This document shows positions 1,030 to 51,097 of a DNA stretch of 64,000 nt, one piece after another. Source of the stretch: Affinundibacterium nitidum (lineage in GTDB: Bacteria; Pseudomonadota; Gammaproteobacteria; Burkholderiales; Burkholderiaceae_D); the NCBI RefSeq assembly GCF_014284155.1, contig NZ_JACOFZ010000006.1, positions 62,001-126,000 on the forward strand, in the 5' to 3' direction. The notes under the pieces were generated by a model. It ran no database searches and was not told where the DNA came from. It saw nothing but the letters and a program-made list of their open reading frames with translations. The first letter of the stretch is position 1. Every line of letters starts with the position of its first letter. The position numbers and the translations under genes are program-made.

Positions 1030-2376
1030 TTACTTCGCGAATACTTTATATTCCCAAGGTTTTAATTCCAACTTCACCTGAGCGCCAGTCGGTGCTGCTT
1101 TACCAGAGCTAATGTCTTTGAGACCCTTACTAGCTAAGGCTGCGTCGATAGTTGCCGTTTGTGGTTTGCTCGAGAGGTTGAATACGGCTACCACTTTATT
1201 GCCGGCCTTTTCGCGAGAGAAGGCAAAAACTTGTTCGTCGCTACCTGTCTTCAAACGCACCATAGGGCCGCCGTCGACACCATTCCACAACGCCTTATTG
1301 CTTTGTTTGAGATGGAATAACTTAGTGTACAACTGCTTGTACGGATGATCTTTCCATTGAATCGGATCGCGTTCAAAGAAGTTTAAGGCTTTGTTGTTGC
1401 CTGCTTCTTGGCCGCTATACAGCAATGGCATGCCAGGCATGATATTCGACAAGACTAAGAAAGCTTCTACGCCATCACCTAAACGTTCAAATTCGGTTCC
1501 TTCCCAGCTATTTAAATCGTGATTAGTGATGTGCAACATGCGATAGGAGTTTGGATGATAGTTTTTCTCTTCGCCATTCAAATAGGCATCAAAATCTTTA
1601 ACTGATTTTTTGCCTTTGGCGATGTCACCCCACAGGTCTTTGTATTGCCAACCGTAAGTCATGTCAAAGGCTTTTTCTTGCAGGTCCCATTCCATCGCCT
1701 CGGCCAACATGAATACCTTCTTGGTTTTGTCGAGTTCTTTACGTGCATCGTTCCAGAAGTCAGTCGGCACCATTGCCGCAACGTCGCAACGGAAACCATC
1801 GATGTCATATTCCTTCAACCAAAAACGCATCGCCTCGATCATCTCTTTGCGTAGATTTTGATTAGTGTAGTCGAGGGCGATGACGTCTGCCCAGTCTGGC
1901 ACTGGCGGCACAAAATTTCCATCTTTGTCTTTTTTATAGAACTCTGGGTGCTGTGTTGCCCATGCGTGATCCCACGCGGAATGGTTAGCGACCCAGTCAA
2001 TAATGAGCTTCATACCATGAGCATGCGCGGCTTTTACTAGACGTTTGAAATCGGCAGGTGTGCCAAATTCAGGATTGACACCGCGATAATCTCGCACGGC
2101 ATAGTAGCTACCTAGAGTCCCTTTGCGATTTTTTTCACCGATAGGATTGATAGGCATCACCCAAATGATCTTGACGCCCATCTTTTGCAGTTCAGGCAGA
2201 TATTCTTCAAATTTTTGGAAGCTACCTTCTTTTGAATGCTGACGAATATTCGCTTCGTAAATGGTTGCGTTCTTGCTCCAAGCCGGGTGTACAACTTCTG
2301 AATTTTTCTGAGCCATGGCAGGTAGGGCTGTGATCGCGCCTATGCTCAGAAGTAGGGAGAAAATTAAACGGTTCAT
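1030..2376 (-). CDS. Exported alpha-amylase family (GH13) glycosidase
   Basis: A 448-residue GH13 enzyme that would hydrolyse alpha-1,4-glucans or maltodextrins in the periplasm or outside the cell. A signal peptide covers about residues 1-22 (LPAMA then QK). The four conserved regions are visible: DWVANH (127-132), GFRCD with nucleophile Asp198, the acid/base Glu226 in LAEAMEW, and NHD (285-287). A small beta domain closes the C-terminus. It is the last gene of a likely operon with a second GH13 enzyme and glucokinase, 46 bases behind the former. That spacer contains a T-run and a G-run. Substrate cannot be read from sequence; maltogenic or oligosaccharide-type activity is an inference. Confidence 0.88.
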   Translation of the reverse strand: MNRLIFSLLLSIGAITALPAMAQKNSEVVHPAWSKNATIYEANIRQHSKEGSFQKFEEYLPELQKMGVKIIWVMPINPIGEKNRKGTLGSYYAVRDYRGVNPEFGTPADFKRLVKAAHAHGMKLIIDWVANHSAWDHAWATQHPEFYKKDKDGNFVPPVPDWADVIALDYTNQNLRKEMIEAMRFWLKEYDIDGFRCDVAAMVPTDFWNDARKELDKTKKVFMLAEAMEWDLQEKAFDMTYGWQYKDLWGDIAKGKKSVKDFDAYLNGEEKNYHPNSYRMLHITNHDLNSWEGTEFERLGDGVEAFLVLSNIMPGMPLLYSGQEAGNNKALNFFERDPIQWKDHPYKQLYTKLFHLKQSNKALWNGVDGGPMVRLKTGSDEQVFAFSREKAGNKVVAVFNLSSKPQTATIDAALASKGLKDISSGKAAPTGAQVKLELKPWEYKVFAK

Positions 2377-2422: not shown

Positions 2423-4351
2423 CTACTGTAGTTCAAATATGTGGGCAGTCTTACCCTCAATCTGTATCTGTTGGCGAATATCTTGTGTGCTACCGCTCAA
2501 AACATCGCGTGCTTTCGAAAAACCTTTCAAGACTTCGGTAAATCGACTCGTGTTCAAGCTTTGTGATTTTTCCTTGCGATTCATTACCACCATAATCGTT
2601 TTTTTGTCGCTGGTACGGAAATACACGTAGCAGTCATCTTGCGGTAAAAAGTGGAGAAACTTTCCGGCATGAATTGCTTTTTCAGCTTTACGCCAGTTGA
2701 ATAAATTGCGCACGAAGTCTTGTGTGGATTTACTTTGCTTAGAAAGGTTTTCACCACTAAAGGCATTCACACGATCGCCAGACCAACCACCTGGGAAGTC
2801 CCCTCTGACTTTACCGTCGTCGCGTTTTTTGGGACTGGTCATCAAAATCTCAGTACCATAAAACATTTGCGGGATGCCGCGCATGGTCGCCAAATAAATC
2901 ATTGCCATTTTCAGCAATGCAGGATCTCGGTTTAGCGCGGAGAACAGGCGTGGGGTATCGTGGTTGCCCTCAAATATGGTGAGATTTTCAGGGTGTGCAT
3001 ATTGGAAATCGTCGGTGGCTGCGAGATAAAGCTTCCCTATATCTGCTTTGCCATCTTTACCGCCAACCAAGCTTGTATGTAGATTTTCGTAGACGGAAAA
3101 ATCCATCATGCTAGGCATATAGGAGCGATAACCGTCTTGATTAACTTTGTCTTTCTGCCAGTACGCAACGATGGCGGGGTTCATACTCCACTCTTCACCA
3201 ACCAGGTTGATAAGGGGGTATTCGTCCGTGATTCGCTTCGACCATTGGGCAAGAAATTCCTTGTTTGAATAGGAATAAGTGTCGACCCGTAAACCGGATA
3301 GATCTGCATACTCAATCCACCAAATCGCGTTTTGGATTAAATAGTTGGCGAGGTAAGGATTTTTCTGATTAAGGTCAGGCATGGTTTGCACAAACCAGCC
3401 ATCCGCGAATTTGTTGCGGTCTTCTATTGATGCATGAGGGTCTTGCACCGTGGCTCGTACATGGTTGGTTTCCACATAGGTGGGGTGTTGATTGAGCCAG
3501 TCATGTGAAGGCAGGTCTTGCATCCACCAATGCTGCGATCCGATGTGGTTGAGTACGACATCATGAATCACTCCCATGCCAAGTTTCTTGGCTTGGGTCA
3601 CCAGTTGGCGATAGTCTTCGTTGCTGCCAAAGCGCTGATCGACTCGATAGAAATCCGTTGCAGCGTAACCATGATACGAATTGATCGCTTGATTATTTTC
3701 GACCAAAGGGGTTGGCCACAACATGGTAAAACCAAGTCCAGCAATGTAGTCGAGATGTTGGGTAAGACCTTGTAAATCTCCACCATGGCGACCACCAGGG
3801 ACGTTGCGTTGTGCAGGGTCTCGCATGCCTGCAATCGTGTCGTTGCGGGTGTCGCCATTCGCAAAACGATCTGGGACGACTAAGTAAATCGCATCGGCAG
3901 GCGTAAAACCTAAACGCTGGGGCGAACCAGGACGGCGAGCATTCAAAGTGAAATTACTCTTGAATTGAACTTTGTTGTCTCTGAGCCATTCAATTTCAAC
4001 ATTACCGACTGCAGCGTCAGGACTGATGAGAAGATCGAGGAAGAGGTAGTGTGCATTTTCTGGACGACTGCTTTTGACCAGCGAGACTCCTGGGTGCTGA
4101 ATCCGTGCTTCAAGGCCGTCGAGATGTTTGCCATAGACCATCAATTGCAATGCAGGTGATTGCATACCTACCCACCAAGAAGATGGCTCTATGCGATCTA
4201 TCTTTGCCGTGGCACTCGCTTGATTATTCTGTTCGAGCTGACGAAGTGGCGCTGAAAGTGAAGTGAATGAAGTAGCTAAAAAAAAAGCAGCGCCGATGAT
4301 CGCAAGGGTATTGCGTGTGGGGAACCGGCGCTGCATGGGGTTAGCCTTCAT
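2423..4351 (-). CDS. Cyclomaltodextrinase/neopullulanase-like GH13 enzyme
   Basis: A 642-residue exported GH13 protein. A basic N-terminus and hydrophobic stretch (about 15-33) form the signal peptide. Residues about 48-140 look like the Ig-like N-terminal domain of cyclomaltodextrinases (EPSSWWVGM). The catalytic barrel follows with DVVLNH (264-269), GLRVD (nucleophile Asp357), GEEW (acid/base Glu386) and EGNHD (461-465), then a C-terminal beta domain. This layout matches SusA-type and neopullulanase-type enzymes that cut cyclodextrins, pullulan or short maltodextrins. Its start overlaps the end of glk by 11 bases, so translation is probably coupled and the genes form one operon (glk, this gene, then the second GH13 gene). 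Confidence 0.88.
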   Translation of the reverse strand: MKANPMQRRFPTRNTLAIIGAAFFLATSFTSLSAPLRQLEQNNQASATAKIDRIEPSSWWVGMQSPALQLMVYGKHLDGLEARIQHPGVSLVKSSRPENAHYLFLDLLISPDAAVGNVEIEWLRDNKVQFKSNFTLNARRPGSPQRLGFTPADAIYLVVPDRFANGDTRNDTIAGMRDPAQRNVPGGRHGGDLQGLTQHLDYIAGLGFTMLWPTPLVENNQAINSYHGYAATDFYRVDQRFGSNEDYRQLVTQAKKLGMGVIHDVVLNHIGSQHWWMQDLPSHDWLNQHPTYVETNHVRATVQDPHASIEDRNKFADGWFVQTMPDLNQKNPYLANYLIQNAIWWIEYADLSGLRVDTYSYSNKEFLAQWSKRITDEYPLINLVGEEWSMNPAIVAYWQKDKVNQDGYRSYMPSMMDFSVYENLHTSLVGGKDGKADIGKLYLAATDDFQYAHPENLTIFEGNHDTPRLFSALNRDPALLKMAMIYLATMRGIPQMFYGTEILMTSPKKRDDGKVRGDFPGGWSGDRVNAFSGENLSKQSKSTQDFVRNLFNWRKAEKAIHAGKFLHFLPQDDCYVYFRTSDKKTIMVVMNRKEKSQSLNTSRFTEVLKGFSKARDVLSGSTQDIRQQIQIEGKTAHIFELQ

Positions 4352-5348
4352 TTTGCTCGATCGCTAAGGCAGCACCAGAAAGCGCTGCCAGTGTGTCTGT
4401 GATAAGTGCTGTTGGAATCTGCGAAACGTAGCCGTGCAAGCGTCCCTTAGCTTCAAATTTTTCGCGGAAACGTGATTGAAAAAAGAAGTCGCCAAGGCGT
4501 GGGACGATGCCGCCGCCGATATACACGCCACTACGCGCACCAACGATTAATGCGACACTGCCCGAAAAACTTCCCAGCAATGCGCAGAATGCGTCTAAGG
4601 TTTTGCGACAAATTACACATTGATTTAACAAGCCACGTTCAACAATTTGTTCGGTACTCAAGGCTTCTACATTCTCTTTGGCGCAGCGCGCAACCGCACG
4701 GTAAAGCGTGGGCAATCCAATACCAGAGAGAAGACGCTCAGCTGAAACATGCGGTAACTCTTCACGCACAGCATCGAGGATTGCCGCTTCGAAATCATCT
4801 GTAGCGGCTAAGGTGGCGTGACCACCTTCACCAGGAATCGCGATCCAGCCATGTTTGCTTTCAATGACAGAGCCCACACCTAAGCCAGTGCCAGGGCCAA
4901 TCACCGCCAAGGTGCCATGGTGTTGCGGCAACTCTGCATGGGGTCGAATTTGGTCAGCCTTCAAACGCGGCAAAGAGAGCGCAAGAGCTTCGAAATCGTT
5001 CAAGGTCAGGAAGGTATCGAGCTGCAATGCCGCTTTCACTTGCGCCTGCGAGTAGCTCCAGTGGCTATTCGTAAAGTTAATATGATCTTGTCCAACTGCG
5101 GTTGCAACTGCAAATGCTGCGCAGCGTGGTGCTTGATAGTCGGCACCGAGTTCTTGTTGGAGTTTGCCTAAATAATGTGCGCTGGCATCAACTGGCGTCG
5201 CAAAATCAGCGACAGGCAAAGTTTTGACATACTTGATGTCGCCACTGTTATCGGTGATCCAGCCAAAACGGGCGTTACTGCCGCCAATGTCGGCAACGAG
5301 CCACGGGTAGCTGGAAGTGGAGGATGGCGAAATAGAACTATTGCTCAT
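4341..5348 (-). CDS. glk: Glucokinase
   Basis: Cytoplasmic ATP-dependent kinase making glucose 6-phosphate. The 335-residue product belongs to the bacterial Glk family, not ROK. The phosphate-binding loop is DIGGSNARFG near residue 20, followed by LNDFEALA, GPGTGLGVG and the sugar-binding GEGGHA. It is first in an operon with two exported GH13 enzymes, so it probably handles glucose released from starch. A strong candidate sigma-70 promoter upstream has a HexR-like palindrome over its -35 box. The window encodes a second glucokinase, fused to HexR, on the other side of the same regulatory region. Confidence 0.93.
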   Translation of the reverse strand: MSNSSISPSSTSSYPWLVADIGGSNARFGWITDNSGDIKYVKTLPVADFATPVDASAHYLGKLQQELGADYQAPRCAAFAVATAVGQDHINFTNSHWSYSQAQVKAALQLDTFLTLNDFEALALSLPRLKADQIRPHAELPQHHGTLAVIGPGTGLGVGSVIESKHGWIAIPGEGGHATLAATDDFEAAILDAVREELPHVSAERLLSGIGLPTLYRAVARCAKENVEALSTEQIVERGLLNQCVICRKTLDAFCALLGSFSGSVALIVGARSGVYIGGGIVPRLGDFFFQSRFREKFEAKGRLHGYVSQIPTALITDTLAALSGAALAIEQNEG

Positions 5349-5439: not shown

Positions 5440-5475
5440 AGGGTGCAATATATAAATTTTAGATAAATGTAGCAA
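5440..5475 (-). promoter_or_regulatory. Candidate sigma-70 promoter of the glk-GH13 operon
   Basis: Read on the minus strand: TTGCTA (5475-5470), a 17-base spacer, then TATATT (5452-5447). Five of six bases match consensus at each hexamer. Transcription would start near 5440, about 90 bases before the glk ATG. The -35 hexamer lies inside the palindrome at 5468-5482, as expected for repression. Confidence 0.6.
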
Positions 5476-5482
5476 AACTACA
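5468..5482. promoter_or_regulatory. HexR-type operator 1
   Basis: TGTAGCAAAACTACA is a 15-base palindrome that fits the HexR consensus as I recall it (TGTARTWWWAYTACA) at 14 of 15 positions. It covers the -35 box of the glk promoter and lies between glk and the gene encoding the HexR-fused glucokinase. Confidence 0.65.
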
Positions 5483-5657
5483 GATTCAATTCAAGTGATT
5501 TGTTCTTTTATTTCAAATTGCTATTGAAAGTGTCGTATCGCTGGCGCAGCTTGTTGTAGTACAAGTAAATGATGTGAGTAAAATGGCAGCCTAGGTTTTA
5601 AAACGCTGATACAAAGAGGCTCTTTATTTTCTTACGATAGACCCTTGAGAAAATACT

Positions 5658-5672
5658 TGTAGTCCAGTTACA
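5658..5672. promoter_or_regulatory. HexR-type operator 2 (weaker)
   Basis: TGTAGTCCAGTTACA has the same 15-base spacing and outer TGTA/TACA halves as operator 1. The centre departs from consensus, giving about 12 of 15 matches. It is 190 bases from operator 1. Confidence 0.45.
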
Positions 5673-5739
5673 TATGTTTATTGCGGTGAGGAAAAGTACA
5701 AGTGATTTGTTTGAAGTTGAAAATTACTTTCACTCGCTT

Positions 5740-5754
5740 TCTAGTCAGACTACA
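5740..5754. promoter_or_regulatory. HexR-type operator 3 (weaker), over a candidate hexR promoter
   Basis: TCTAGTCAGACTACA keeps the 15-base layout with one altered outer base, about 12 of 15 matches. TTGAAA at 5717-5722 followed by 17 bases and TCTAGT at 5740-5745 makes a plausible promoter for the fused glucokinase/HexR gene, and the palindrome would cover its -10 box. An alternative -10 (TACAAT, 5751-5756) would also be covered. Self-repression is inferred. Confidence 0.4.
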
Positions 5755-5876
5755 ATGCAAATACTAGAAAAATTGCACACAGGGAAATCTTCCGAGAACT
5801 CGGAAAACTCCGAATTTATTTGATCTCCTGAGGCAAGTAGGTTGAAGAAAATTGCCGCGCCCGGTAATCGCTAACT

Positions 5877-5886
5877 GGGGGGGGGG
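5877..5886 (+). repeat. Ten-base G tract in the hexR leader
   Basis: A run of ten G residues lies 64 bases before the GTG start of the glucokinase/HexR gene, downstream of its candidate promoter, so it would be in the 5' untranslated leader. Shorter G runs occur at 2401-2407 (seven) and 27142-27149 (eight). Long homopolymers are prone to slippage and sequencing error. Confidence 0.7.
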
Positions 5887-48804: not shown

Positions 48805-48819
48805 TGTACTTAAACTACA
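48805..48819. promoter_or_regulatory. HexR-type operator upstream of the alpha-amylase gene
   Basis: TGTACTTAAACTACA fits the recalled HexR consensus TGTARTWWWAYTACA at 14 of 15 positions, with the WWWA core intact. It is about 390 bases before the amylase ATG and 140 before the doxX start. It matches operator 1 at 5468 in spacing and outer halves. Confidence 0.5.
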
Positions 48820-48878: not shown

Positions 48879-49210
48879 AAGTCATTGAATATATTTGATA
48901 AAAATTTTAGTGATGTTTGTTTTGTTTCCACAACACTTTGATCCAAAGCGATTTGGTTTGTAAGTGAACTACTCTAGTATACAAAACATCAAGTCAAATA
49001 AACACATCGTTTTCTCAGCTTGATCATGGCCTATCGGCATCCAAACGATGTTGGGTAGGACAGTGTTGCATGGGGTTGTTCGTGCTGGCTTTTGAATCGT
49101 TTTTCCTAGCCTGTACTTACCCGCGATGAAGTAGAGCAGTAGACATTCCAAAAAAATTGCGCCGACCACGGTAAGCAAAAAAACTAAACTTTTATACTGG
49201 AAGAGACAAA

Positions 49211-51097
49211 ATGAAATTGAAATCGACAAAATGGCTGTCGCTGTTAGCGACTGGCTCGCTGGTGCTTGGCCCCCTGTTTTTAAGCACATCGGCAAATGCA
49301 GCAGTATTGAATCCTAAAGGCACTTCAGTGCAAATGTTCCACTGGAAGTGGAAAGACATCTCCAAGGAATGTACCAATTGGCTCGGACCTCAAGGCGTGG
49401 GTGCAGTGCAGGTTTCACCTCCAACCGCGGCACAAAACGGCGTGAATTGGTATGACATCTATCAACCCGTTGACTACACCAGCTTGACCAGCAAGATGGG
49501 GAATGCGACCGAGTTTCAAGCCATGATTACGGCTTGCCATAATGCGGGCGTACGTGTGTATGTCGACGTCGTGGCGAATCACCTTTCTGCAGCGAGTGGA
49601 ACAGCGACAAACGGTGCGACTTATAGCGCAACGACACTGACTTACCCACGTTTTAGCGCGGCAGATTTTCATCCTAACTGCGCAATTCAAGACGCTGACT
49701 ACGGTTCACCTGGCAATCGCAACAGCATTACTTCCTGCCGTTTAGTTGGCTTGCCTGATTTGAATACGGGTAGCGCATATGTGCAAGGCCAAATTAAAAA
49801 TTATTTGACGGCGATGATTAATATGGGCGTCGATGGTTTCCGTTTTGATGCAGCAAAACACATTGCACAAGCAGACCTGCAAGCGATCTATAGCGGTGTT
49901 GCGCATACGAGTTTGGCAGGCGAGCCATTGTGGGTCACTCAGGAAATTATCCCAGATGGCAACGTTGATCGTAATTCTTATTTGACGATAGGTACCATTA
50001 ACGAATTTAAGTATGCCTATGCGATGAAAGCCATGTTCCGCAATGAAAATGGCAATAGCATTTCACAAATTCGTTCCATCATGGGCACGCCAGGCAACTG
50101 GGGTGGTACGTGGGGCTTTTTGAATTCAAGCAACGCGACCGCTTTTGTGAACAACTGGGATACCGAACGTAGTGGCGATTCCATGAATGCTGCCAATAAA
50201 ACCGGTGCAGTTCCTAACGACACTATCGGCAGCAAACGCTATGACTTGGCGAACATTTTGATGTTGGCTTGGCCTTATGGTGATGTGCAAATGCATTCGG
50301 GCTTTAATTTTACAAACCGTGATGCGGACGCACCAACTGCGAGCCCGTTTGATGCTGCTGGTAATCCTAAGATCAATCAAGATTGGGATTTTGTACACCG
50401 TTGGTCTGATATTTCCAATATGGTTGCCTTCCGCAATGTGACGAATGGTCAGGGTGTGGATAGTTTCACGACTGGTACTGTCAATCAGATCGCGTTTAAC
50501 CGTGGTGCTAAAGGCTTTGTCGCCATTAACAATGAATTCAGCGCGTGGAATGCAACACTACAAACCTTGCTGCCAGCTGGAACTTATTGCAACGTCACAC
50601 GCGGCGTGTTGAATGCTGCTCAGACCGATTGTACTGGTGAGAAAATCACAGTGGCTGCCAATGGCACTGTGAGTTTGAGTATTCCAGCCAACGGCGGTAG
50701 TTTAGTTCCTGCGGTGGCCTTGCATATCAATCAGAAAGTCAGTGGTGGCGGTGGTGGTACACCAACCTGTACTTCTGTTCCTGTCACTTTCCGTGTCAGC
50801 AATGCAAACACTGTGCTTGGTCAAAACGTGTATGTCGCAGGCAATCGCGCAGAACTGGGTAACTGGACACCAAGCGCAGTTAATCTGTTGACTATTCAAG
50901 GCAGTGGCGCAAATGTGCCTTGGTCACGTACGATTCAATTGCCACCATCAACTCCGATTCAATTTAAATTCATGAAGAGCGGTGCGGTTGCGAATGTCTG
51001 GGAGCGTAATCAAGCGACAGGCAGCGGCAATCGCGAAGCGACAACGCCAGCATGTGGTAGTTCTTTGACTTTGGATGTGGGTGCTTTCCAGTTCTAA
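49211..51097 (+). CDS. Secreted alpha-amylase with C-terminal CBM20
   Basis: A 628-residue secreted enzyme that cuts internal alpha-1,4 bonds of starch. The signal peptide ends near SANA. The GH13 motifs are DVVANH, GFRFDAAKH (nucleophile Asp), TQEII (acid/base Glu) and NNWDTERS in place of the usual NHD block, as in the animal-type/actinobacterial amylase branch. A Gly-rich hinge (SGGGGG) connects to a starch-binding CBM20 domain (VTFRVSNANTVLGQNVYVAG, LGNWTPSAVNLL, QFKFMKSG). It stands alone with a long upstream region containing a HexR-like palindrome. The glucose it yields would feed the glk genes at 4-8 kb. Confidence 0.93.
   Translation: MKLKSTKWLSLLATGSLVLGPLFLSTSANAAVLNPKGTSVQMFHWKWKDISKECTNWLGPQGVGAVQVSPPTAAQNGVNWYDIYQPVDYTSLTSKMGNATEFQAMITACHNAGVRVYVDVVANHLSAASGTATNGATYSATTLTYPRFSAADFHPNCAIQDADYGSPGNRNSITSCRLVGLPDLNTGSAYVQGQIKNYLTAMINMGVDGFRFDAAKHIAQADLQAIYSGVAHTSLAGEPLWVTQEIIPDGNVDRNSYLTIGTINEFKYAYAMKAMFRNENGNSISQIRSIMGTPGNWGGTWGFLNSSNATAFVNNWDTERSGDSMNAANKTGAVPNDTIGSKRYDLANILMLAWPYGDVQMHSGFNFTNRDADAPTASPFDAAGNPKINQDWDFVHRWSDISNMVAFRNVTNGQGVDSFTTGTVNQIAFNRGAKGFVAINNEFSAWNATLQTLLPAGTYCNVTRGVLNAAQTDCTGEKITVAANGTVSLSIPANGGSLVPAVALHINQKVSGGGGGTPTCTSVPVTFRVSNANTVLGQNVYVAGNRAELGNWTPSAVNLLTIQGSGANVPWSRTIQLPPSTPIQFKFMKSGAVANVWERNQATGSGNREATTPACGSSLTLDVGAFQF

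Follow-up and report, generated by a model that had tools for sequence, protein, structure and literature searches.

Conserved palindromes beside a glucokinase–RpiR fusion gene as predicted operators of an alpha-glucan regulon

The three palindromes lying between a glucokinase gene (glk) and a divergent gene for a glucokinase–RpiR fusion protein are, with a probability of about 0.9 judged from comparative sequence evidence, operators of an alpha-glucan (starch and maltodextrin) regulon. An earlier note on this DNA had read them as HexR-type sites answering to KDPG and shared with edd and zwf; the palindromes are real and conserved, and more interesting than first claimed, but for another pathway. 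Their position at two glucose-kinase genes, together with their recurrence before genes for starch digestion and uptake, suggests that a single protein may couple the use of starch to the phosphorylation of glucose.

The glk–fusion locus and its palindromes

The window, by which we mean the whole 64,000-base stretch analysed (G000:C65:62001-126000, from a genome of 4.38 Mb in 80 contigs), holds the genes and sites collected in Table 1. The fusion protein has its nearest named relatives in an Oxalobacteraceae MAG (98%) and in Undibacterium species (82–87%), and D110, E167, H170 and E197, which we take, as a prediction, to be residues bearing on glucokinase activity, are invariant across six aligned fusions. 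Elsewhere in the genome (G000:C1:106319-107272) there is another glucokinase-like reading frame, the third, with 32% identity to the fusion's kinase part.

Table 1. Features of the glk–fusion and amylase regions, in window coordinates
Feature	Position	Strand	Details
Fusion gene: glucokinase + RpiR HTH + SIS, 642 aa	5951..7879	+	PF02685 16-324, PF01418 338-408, PF01380 460-587
glk, separate glucokinase, 335 aa, first gene of divergent operon	4341..5348	-	PF02685; TIGR00749 above cut-off
GH13 enzyme with cyclomaltodextrinase N and C domains	2423..4351	-	PF00128, PF09087, PF10438; 11-base overlap with glk
GH13 enzyme	1030..2376	-	PF00128; 46 bases behind preceding GH13 gene
Alpha-amylase with CBM20 starch-binding domain	49211..51097	+	PF00128, PF02806, PF00686
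Putative glk -35, TTGAAT	5489..5494	-	17 bp from -10
Putative glk -10, TACATT	5466..5471	-	After TGC (extended -10)
Predicted operator 1	5468..5482	-	TGTAGTTTTGCTACA as read on glk strand; over spacer and extended -10 of glk promoter
Predicted operator 2	5658..5672	.	TGTAGTCCAGTTACA; conserved in Undibacterium-type loci
Predicted operator 3	5740..5754	+	TCTAGTCAGACTACA
Candidate -10 of fusion gene, TACAAT	5751..5756	+	Invariant in 8 aligned sequences
Predicted operator copy	48805..48819	+	TGTACTTAAACTACA, 1 mismatch; upstream of amylase gene
Weak second copy	48959..48973	+	TGTAAGTGAACTACT, 3 mismatches to TGTARTWWWAYTACA; may be chance

All three palindromes were found exactly where the earlier note had placed them, operator 1 reading TGTAGCAAAACTACA at coordinates checked in the window. 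The pattern that the note had proposed, TGTARTWWWAYTACA, from which operators 1, 2 and 3 depart at 1, 3 and 3 positions, was dropped as too loose: the window holds 15 matches with at most three mismatches against a shuffle mean of 11.2, a count of 15 being reached in 13 of 100 shuffles, and the genome holds 8 matches with at most one mismatch against 16 for the reversed control, four of the eight apparently away from starch genes. Comparison with relatives yielded a refined operator, TGTAGY-N3-RCTACA, and to the refined pattern, TGTAGYNNNRCTACA, the three sites show 0, 1 and 1 mismatches. With at most one mismatch allowed, the 602 bp that separate glk from the fusion gene contain three matches against a simulated mean of 0.0022 (none of 5000 Markov simulations reached three), and contig C65 (169,697 bases) contains five, where 60 simulations averaged 0.57 and peaked at 3, although these figures are biased in favour of a pattern shaped on sites already seen, so that conservation is the fairer, independent test. 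In that comparison, operator 3 lies in a block, TCTAGTCAGACTACAATG, invariant at 17 of 18 columns in eight aligned sequences, and conservation does not extend to a fourth, weak match at 5555-5569. Looping, which the earlier note raised as a possibility, would involve sites of which only one pair keeps its spacing. Operators 2 and 3 stand 82–84 bp apart in eight loci, about eight helical turns, and in the same eight loci the distance between operators 1 and 2 varies from 180 to 302 bp.

Operator 1 is present in 73 of 81 loci (80 related loci, the best 80 of 165, and the window). On the glk strand it reads TGTAGTTTTGCTACM, and in 69 of these 73 loci a TTG starts 12 bases upstream of it; at positions 12–17 the loci carry TAC[CA][TG]T, with TG at positions 9–10 and 17 bp to the -35 element. 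Since operator 1 was picked by a pattern that fixes most of it, invariance inside the operator holds partly by construction, but the TTG at -12 and T17, which is invariant in 73 of 73 loci, fall outside that pattern. The conserved columns indicate that the glk promoter is of the extended -10 type, with operator 1 over its spacer and -10 element, a position that fits blockage of the promoter and hence predicted repression of glk. Of the earlier note's reading, the predicted blockage of the glk promoter stands, and the placement of operator 1 over a -35 box is wrong. The promoter scanner offered the pair TTGCTA-17-TATATT, with the operator over the -35; this pair is not conserved, unlike the TTG 12 bases upstream, and was rejected for that reason. 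Among more distant relatives (see below), glucokinase operators lie inside the 17-bp spacer of a TTGATA/TAAAAT pair in five of the six shown, as judged by eye.

For the fusion gene, eight aligned sequences share only the -10-like TACAAT at the end of operator 3, with no conserved -35, and a promoter scan did not rise above shuffles (2 found against a mean of 1.3). A site over the -10 of the regulator's promoter, as the earlier note had it, is compatible with the invariant TACAAT. The leader of the fusion gene also carries a run of ten G (5877-5886), absent from seven aligned relatives, which may be a slippage site or a matter of assembly, and a terminator-like hairpin followed by a T-rich stretch (5800-5813) lies between operator 3 and the fusion start and is not conserved in the alignment. 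A search for RNA elements gave a single hit below threshold (21.6 bits against 76), which we consider a chance match.

Conservation and target genes

Among 80 related loci (named genomes encoding a relative of the fusion, the best 80 of 165), 73 carry at least one operator with at most one mismatch in the 760 bp that precede the fusion gene, and 61 carry two or more, against none in any of the 80 for the reversed motif and three permuted motifs over the identical 60,711 bases. A further site lies 1.0–2.9 kb upstream of the fusion in 46 of these 80 loci, mostly between the end of glk and the start of the TonB receptor gene. The seven of 80 without an upstream operator are L033, L034, L035, L036, L037, L049 and L096; in L034 and L096 an operator is present elsewhere in the cluster, and in L033, L035, L036 and L037 the fusion is present with no operator of at most one mismatch in the examined stretch. 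The starch clusters of L033, L035 and L025 include a LacI-like gene, and L033 and L035 are without operators, as if one regulator had taken the place of another. In L036 and L037, which have no operator copy, the fusion follows by about 1–2 kb genes of 617–629, 209–212 and 497–499 aa, presumably edd, eda and zwf from their size and first residues.

The genome itself holds six matches to TGTAGT-N3-ACTACA with at most one mismatch, and five of them lie at starch-type genes: two at glk and the fusion gene, one before a TonB-dependent receptor gene (C65:35771; TIGR01782), one before the CBM20 amylase gene, whose orthologous promoters carry perfect operator copies in three genomes, and one before a GH13 gene (C80:77514). 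With 25 matches for the reversed control against these six, the count is not enriched, and the signal lies in position rather than in number. The sixth site, TGTAGTCAAACTACC, a one-mismatch copy at C32:337941 (L115:4941-4955), stands upstream of a membrane-protein gene, which we take to be a Bax-inhibitor-1 relative, and no link to starch was seen there.

The 40 genomes examined in the genus together hold 66 perfect matches, spread over 29 of them, and the raw count is again not enriched (96 for the reversed pattern). Within a range of 160 bp inside to 750 bp upstream of a gene, 58 of the 66 sites lie at glucokinase, fusion, TonB-receptor, GH13, amylase or pullulanase genes (23 at glucokinase/fusion, 6 at glucokinase/pullulanase pairs, 18 at TonB receptors, for which at least 40% identity was required, and 11 at GH13/amylase/pullulanase), an assignment that used reference proteins taken partly from the same loci; one pullulanase piece, in L137, matches itself, and its naming rests on Pfam. 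No starch gene was found near the other 8 of 66, and none of 30 loci in the permuted-motif control falls at such target genes. Two of the perfect palindromes, at L140:1501 (G017) and L167:2001 (G022), are identical (TGTAGTGACGCTACA), with no starch gene recognised there, and the L140 site lies directly behind a gene for a stand-alone HexR-like protein. The operators of the TonB receptors (L098:1501-1515 and its orthologues) read TGTAGTTTGACTACA, and their inner TTGACT resembles a -35 element, which suggests a further promoter overlap.

The fusions of the genus fall into two groups, 19 genomes with at least 74% identity (close) and 18 with 52–60% (distant); no clear fusion was found in G008, G025 and G026, the first two being only 73% complete. 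A perfect operator is present in 19 of 19 close-fusion genomes (56 sites) against 8 of 18 distant-fusion genomes (8 sites), and in G026 (99% complete) a single perfect site lies before a pullulanase-like gene. In the distant group, two operators precede an MFS-GH13-GH31-fusion operon at one locus (L240), and two operators 128–140 bp apart separate a pullulanase gene, where the sequence reaches it, from a divergent glucokinase-GH13 pair at L237, L239, L241 and L243, so that the operator tracks identical functions despite rearrangement.

The target set (58 of 66 against 0 of 30), taken with a separate system at edd, eda and zwf, points to a regulon for alpha-glucan use and not for edd and zwf. 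The earlier note had offered as a refutation that the motif be no commoner before sugar genes than elsewhere; in this comparison the motif passed, for starch genes, and its proposed targets edd and zwf have no copy of TGTARTWWWAYTACA with at most one mismatch in this genome. The gap between edd and zwf carries instead a different conserved site, CGTAAYGAAACTACA, in 28 of 28 loci with a long ORF (30 examined, L210 and L225 being left out since no long ORF was found in them), the copy of this genome lying at L112:9287-9301 (G000:C11:949287). A second element, TGTAACAAACTTTCA or its reverse complement, lies 61–62 bp away in 21 of the 28, and this conserved pair speaks for a system separate from the glk|fusion operators. 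A stand-alone HexR-like gene (C11:951839-952720) is clustered there with zwf, edd and eda, and CGTAAYGAAACTACA is probably the operator of its product.

The regulator and its signal

Four proteins of this genome have an HTH_6 domain and so count as candidate binders. The recognition helix reads VSQPTVIRFCR in 92 fusions, VSEPTIVRFCR in RccR, whose structure (8K3B) is the closest solved to the RpiR part of the fusion, and VSEPTVARFAQ in the stand-alone HexR-like protein; residue counts here and below leave out L023, where the match starts out of frame. In a tree the fusions form one clade (99/98), on long branches that do not settle whether it stands nearer HexR or RccR. The encoding of the fusion beside the operators, its RccR-like helix and the agreement of the operator half-site with that of RccR make it the better candidate binder, and we consider it probable, on a balance that leans clearly its way, that the fusion binds and represses at these operators. 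The HexR-type label of the earlier note survives insofar as the sites are HexR/RccR-type operators flanking both divergent genes, with the adjoining RpiR-part regulator as the best candidate binder; the targets edd and zwf and KDPG as signal find no support. Against the fusion as binder stand G026, with a site and no fusion, and L033, L035, L036 and L037, with a fusion and no site.

The effector pocket bears on both binder and signal. In the RccR–KDPG structure, nine residues contact KDPG, and the alanine changes R152A, K270A and R277A cost KDPG binding, while S139A, H148A and H164A abolished DNA binding, according to the structural and mutational passages of that report (PMC10810197). In the 80 close fusions, residue 139 (Ser in RccR) is Tyr in 80, residue 148 is Phe in 71, Tyr in 7 and Leu in 2, residue 164 is Arg in 78 and Lys in 2, and residue 188 is Leu in 58, Val in 13, Ile in 7 and Met in 2; Arg152 and Ser183 are kept in all 80, and residue 185 is Ser in 53, Gly in 26 and Thr in 1. 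The fusion of this genome has Tyr139, Phe148, Arg152, Arg164, Ser183, Ser185 and Leu188, with Ala at 270 and 277 in an ungapped reading of the tail, and so does not have the nine RccR contacts as a set; the close fusions shown have, in place of the C-terminal helix that carries Lys270 and Arg277, a tail ending LTSHS(R). Twelve distant fusions keep His148, Arg152, His164 and Ser183/185, with Leu188 and another tail. The fusion thus departs from RccR at 139, 148 and 164, where alanine abolished DNA binding of RccR, which counts against its binding DNA. The loss of several RccR contacts, including Ser139, makes KDPG, the signal named in the earlier note, unlikely for the fusion, and as the stand-alone HexR-like protein keeps Ser139, Arg152, His164, Ser183, Lys270 and Arg277, KDPG is likely sensed by that protein, and the fusion probably responds to another signal. 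Confidence in any given signal for the fusion is low, and glucose-6-phosphate, the product of its own kinase part, is a guess.

It is unlikely that the stand-alone HexR-like protein binds these operators as a KDPG sensor, with the fusion mainly an enzyme. It retains more KDPG contacts than the fusion and occurs in most genomes of the genus, G026 with its site and no fusion included; yet it occurs in both fusion groups while perfect sites follow fusion type, and the operators travel with the fusion gene across the 80 loci (best 80 of 165). The half-sites at edd|zwf are related to those at glk|fusion, but the edd|zwf site as a whole is a different, asymmetric sequence, and the recognition helix of the stand-alone protein departs from RccR where that of the fusion does not. 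The earlier note's own view, of the fusion as a genuine HexR orthologue with KDPG as its signal and central metabolism under its control, is very unlikely: its KDPG contacts are changed, the ED cluster has a separate HexR-like gene, and edd|zwf has no site of the fusion-operator type. The fusion does have the RpiR architecture, and HexR is its second-best regulator model, but at 237.5 bits it falls, like the stand-alone protein at 270.2, under the NCBIfam HexR cut-off of 296.

A LacI-family maltose regulator as the binder has a very slim chance. The LacI-like gene, so named from its sequence, comes first in the starch operon of L033 and L035 and is part of the L025 cluster, but two of these three loci have no operators, and the operator is of odd length with a free 3-base centre, a form not known for LacI operators. 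Least probable of all is that the sites are promoter elements or chance palindromes with no regulator: a promoter alone would not need two symmetric TGTAG arms, and no comparable -35 accompanies operators 2 and 3, even though the overlap of operator 1 with an extended -10 promoter explains part of its conservation and raw genome-wide counts are not enriched.

With the fusion as the preferred regulator, a simple scheme can be proposed. In the absence of inducer, the fusion on operator 1 would cover the spacer and extended -10 of the glk promoter and so block RNA polymerase, its binding to operators 2 and 3 in front of the fusion gene would amount to autoregulation, and operator copies elsewhere would repress the TonB receptor, the CBM20 amylase and the GH13 enzyme. 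Maltodextrins would then yield glucose, and a glucose-derived signal, at a first guess glucose-6-phosphate from either glucokinase and not KDPG, would release the fusion. The sequences compared here document the operators, their conservation, the target set, the promoter overlap and the altered pocket; a far more tentative proposal, possible rather than probable, is that the fusion is a one-protein flux sensor, in which the kinase part and a rewired SIS pocket jointly gate DNA binding by glucose phosphorylation (through glucose-6-phosphate or a filled kinase site). Such a sensor would link starch breakdown outside the cell with uptake across the outer membrane and with glucose entry, and KDPG would have no part in it. 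KDPG-sensing RpiR regulators are already known from central metabolism, and a widespread, uncharacterised fusion gains here predictions of its operator, its target set and a change of signal. If this is true, starch-eating Burkholderiales use a kinase–regulator fusion for starch, and the many genes annotated as "bifunctional transcriptional regulator/glucokinase" in the Burkholderiales gain a regulon.

Comparison with known systems

LacI-type maltose/starch regulators control similar kinds of genes, and differ from the fusion system in protein family and operator. HexR shares the HTH_6 and SIS architecture of the fusion, and its operator in Shewanella is reportedly a 15-bp palindrome. Its core targets are zwf, edd, eda, glk and pykA (PMC5343134), whereas the fusion operators mark starch genes and a different conserved site stands at zwf/edd; in Pseudomonas, the HexR operator is given as TTGT-N7/8-ACAA (PMC5489143). 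The best NCBIfam match of the fusion, at 819.5 bits, is PRK14101/NF010701 (bifunctional transcriptional regulator/glucokinase), with the identical domain order glucokinase-HTH_6-SIS; it lies below that model's cut-off of 920, as do six other fusions at 764–845 (7 of 7 scanned). The portions of the literature covered, with passages of PMC5343134, PMC5489143, PMC5507952 and PMC10810197 among them, returned no regulon or operator for a glucokinase–RpiR fusion, and RegPrecise may carry a prediction for some beta-proteobacteria.

The closest parallel in DNA recognition is RccR of Pseudomonas. In the sections of its description that treat operators and targets (PMC5489143), the half-site is TGTAGT/ACTACA in a 15-bp operator, TGTAGT-N3-ACTACA, two copies stand 68 bp apart at aceE, the protein regulates itself and controls aceEF and genes of the glyoxylate shunt and gluconeogenesis, and 28-bp operators are also used. 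The glk|fusion sites have the 15-bp form. On contig C65 the 28-bp form, TGTAGT-N16-ACTACA, was not found at the targets: the contig has no perfect copy, one with one mismatch that is not at a named target and one with two mismatches that begins at 5555. RccR is not fused to a glucokinase, as the protein described here is, and, according to its structural report (PMC10810197), it binds KDPG through residues that are changed in the fusion.
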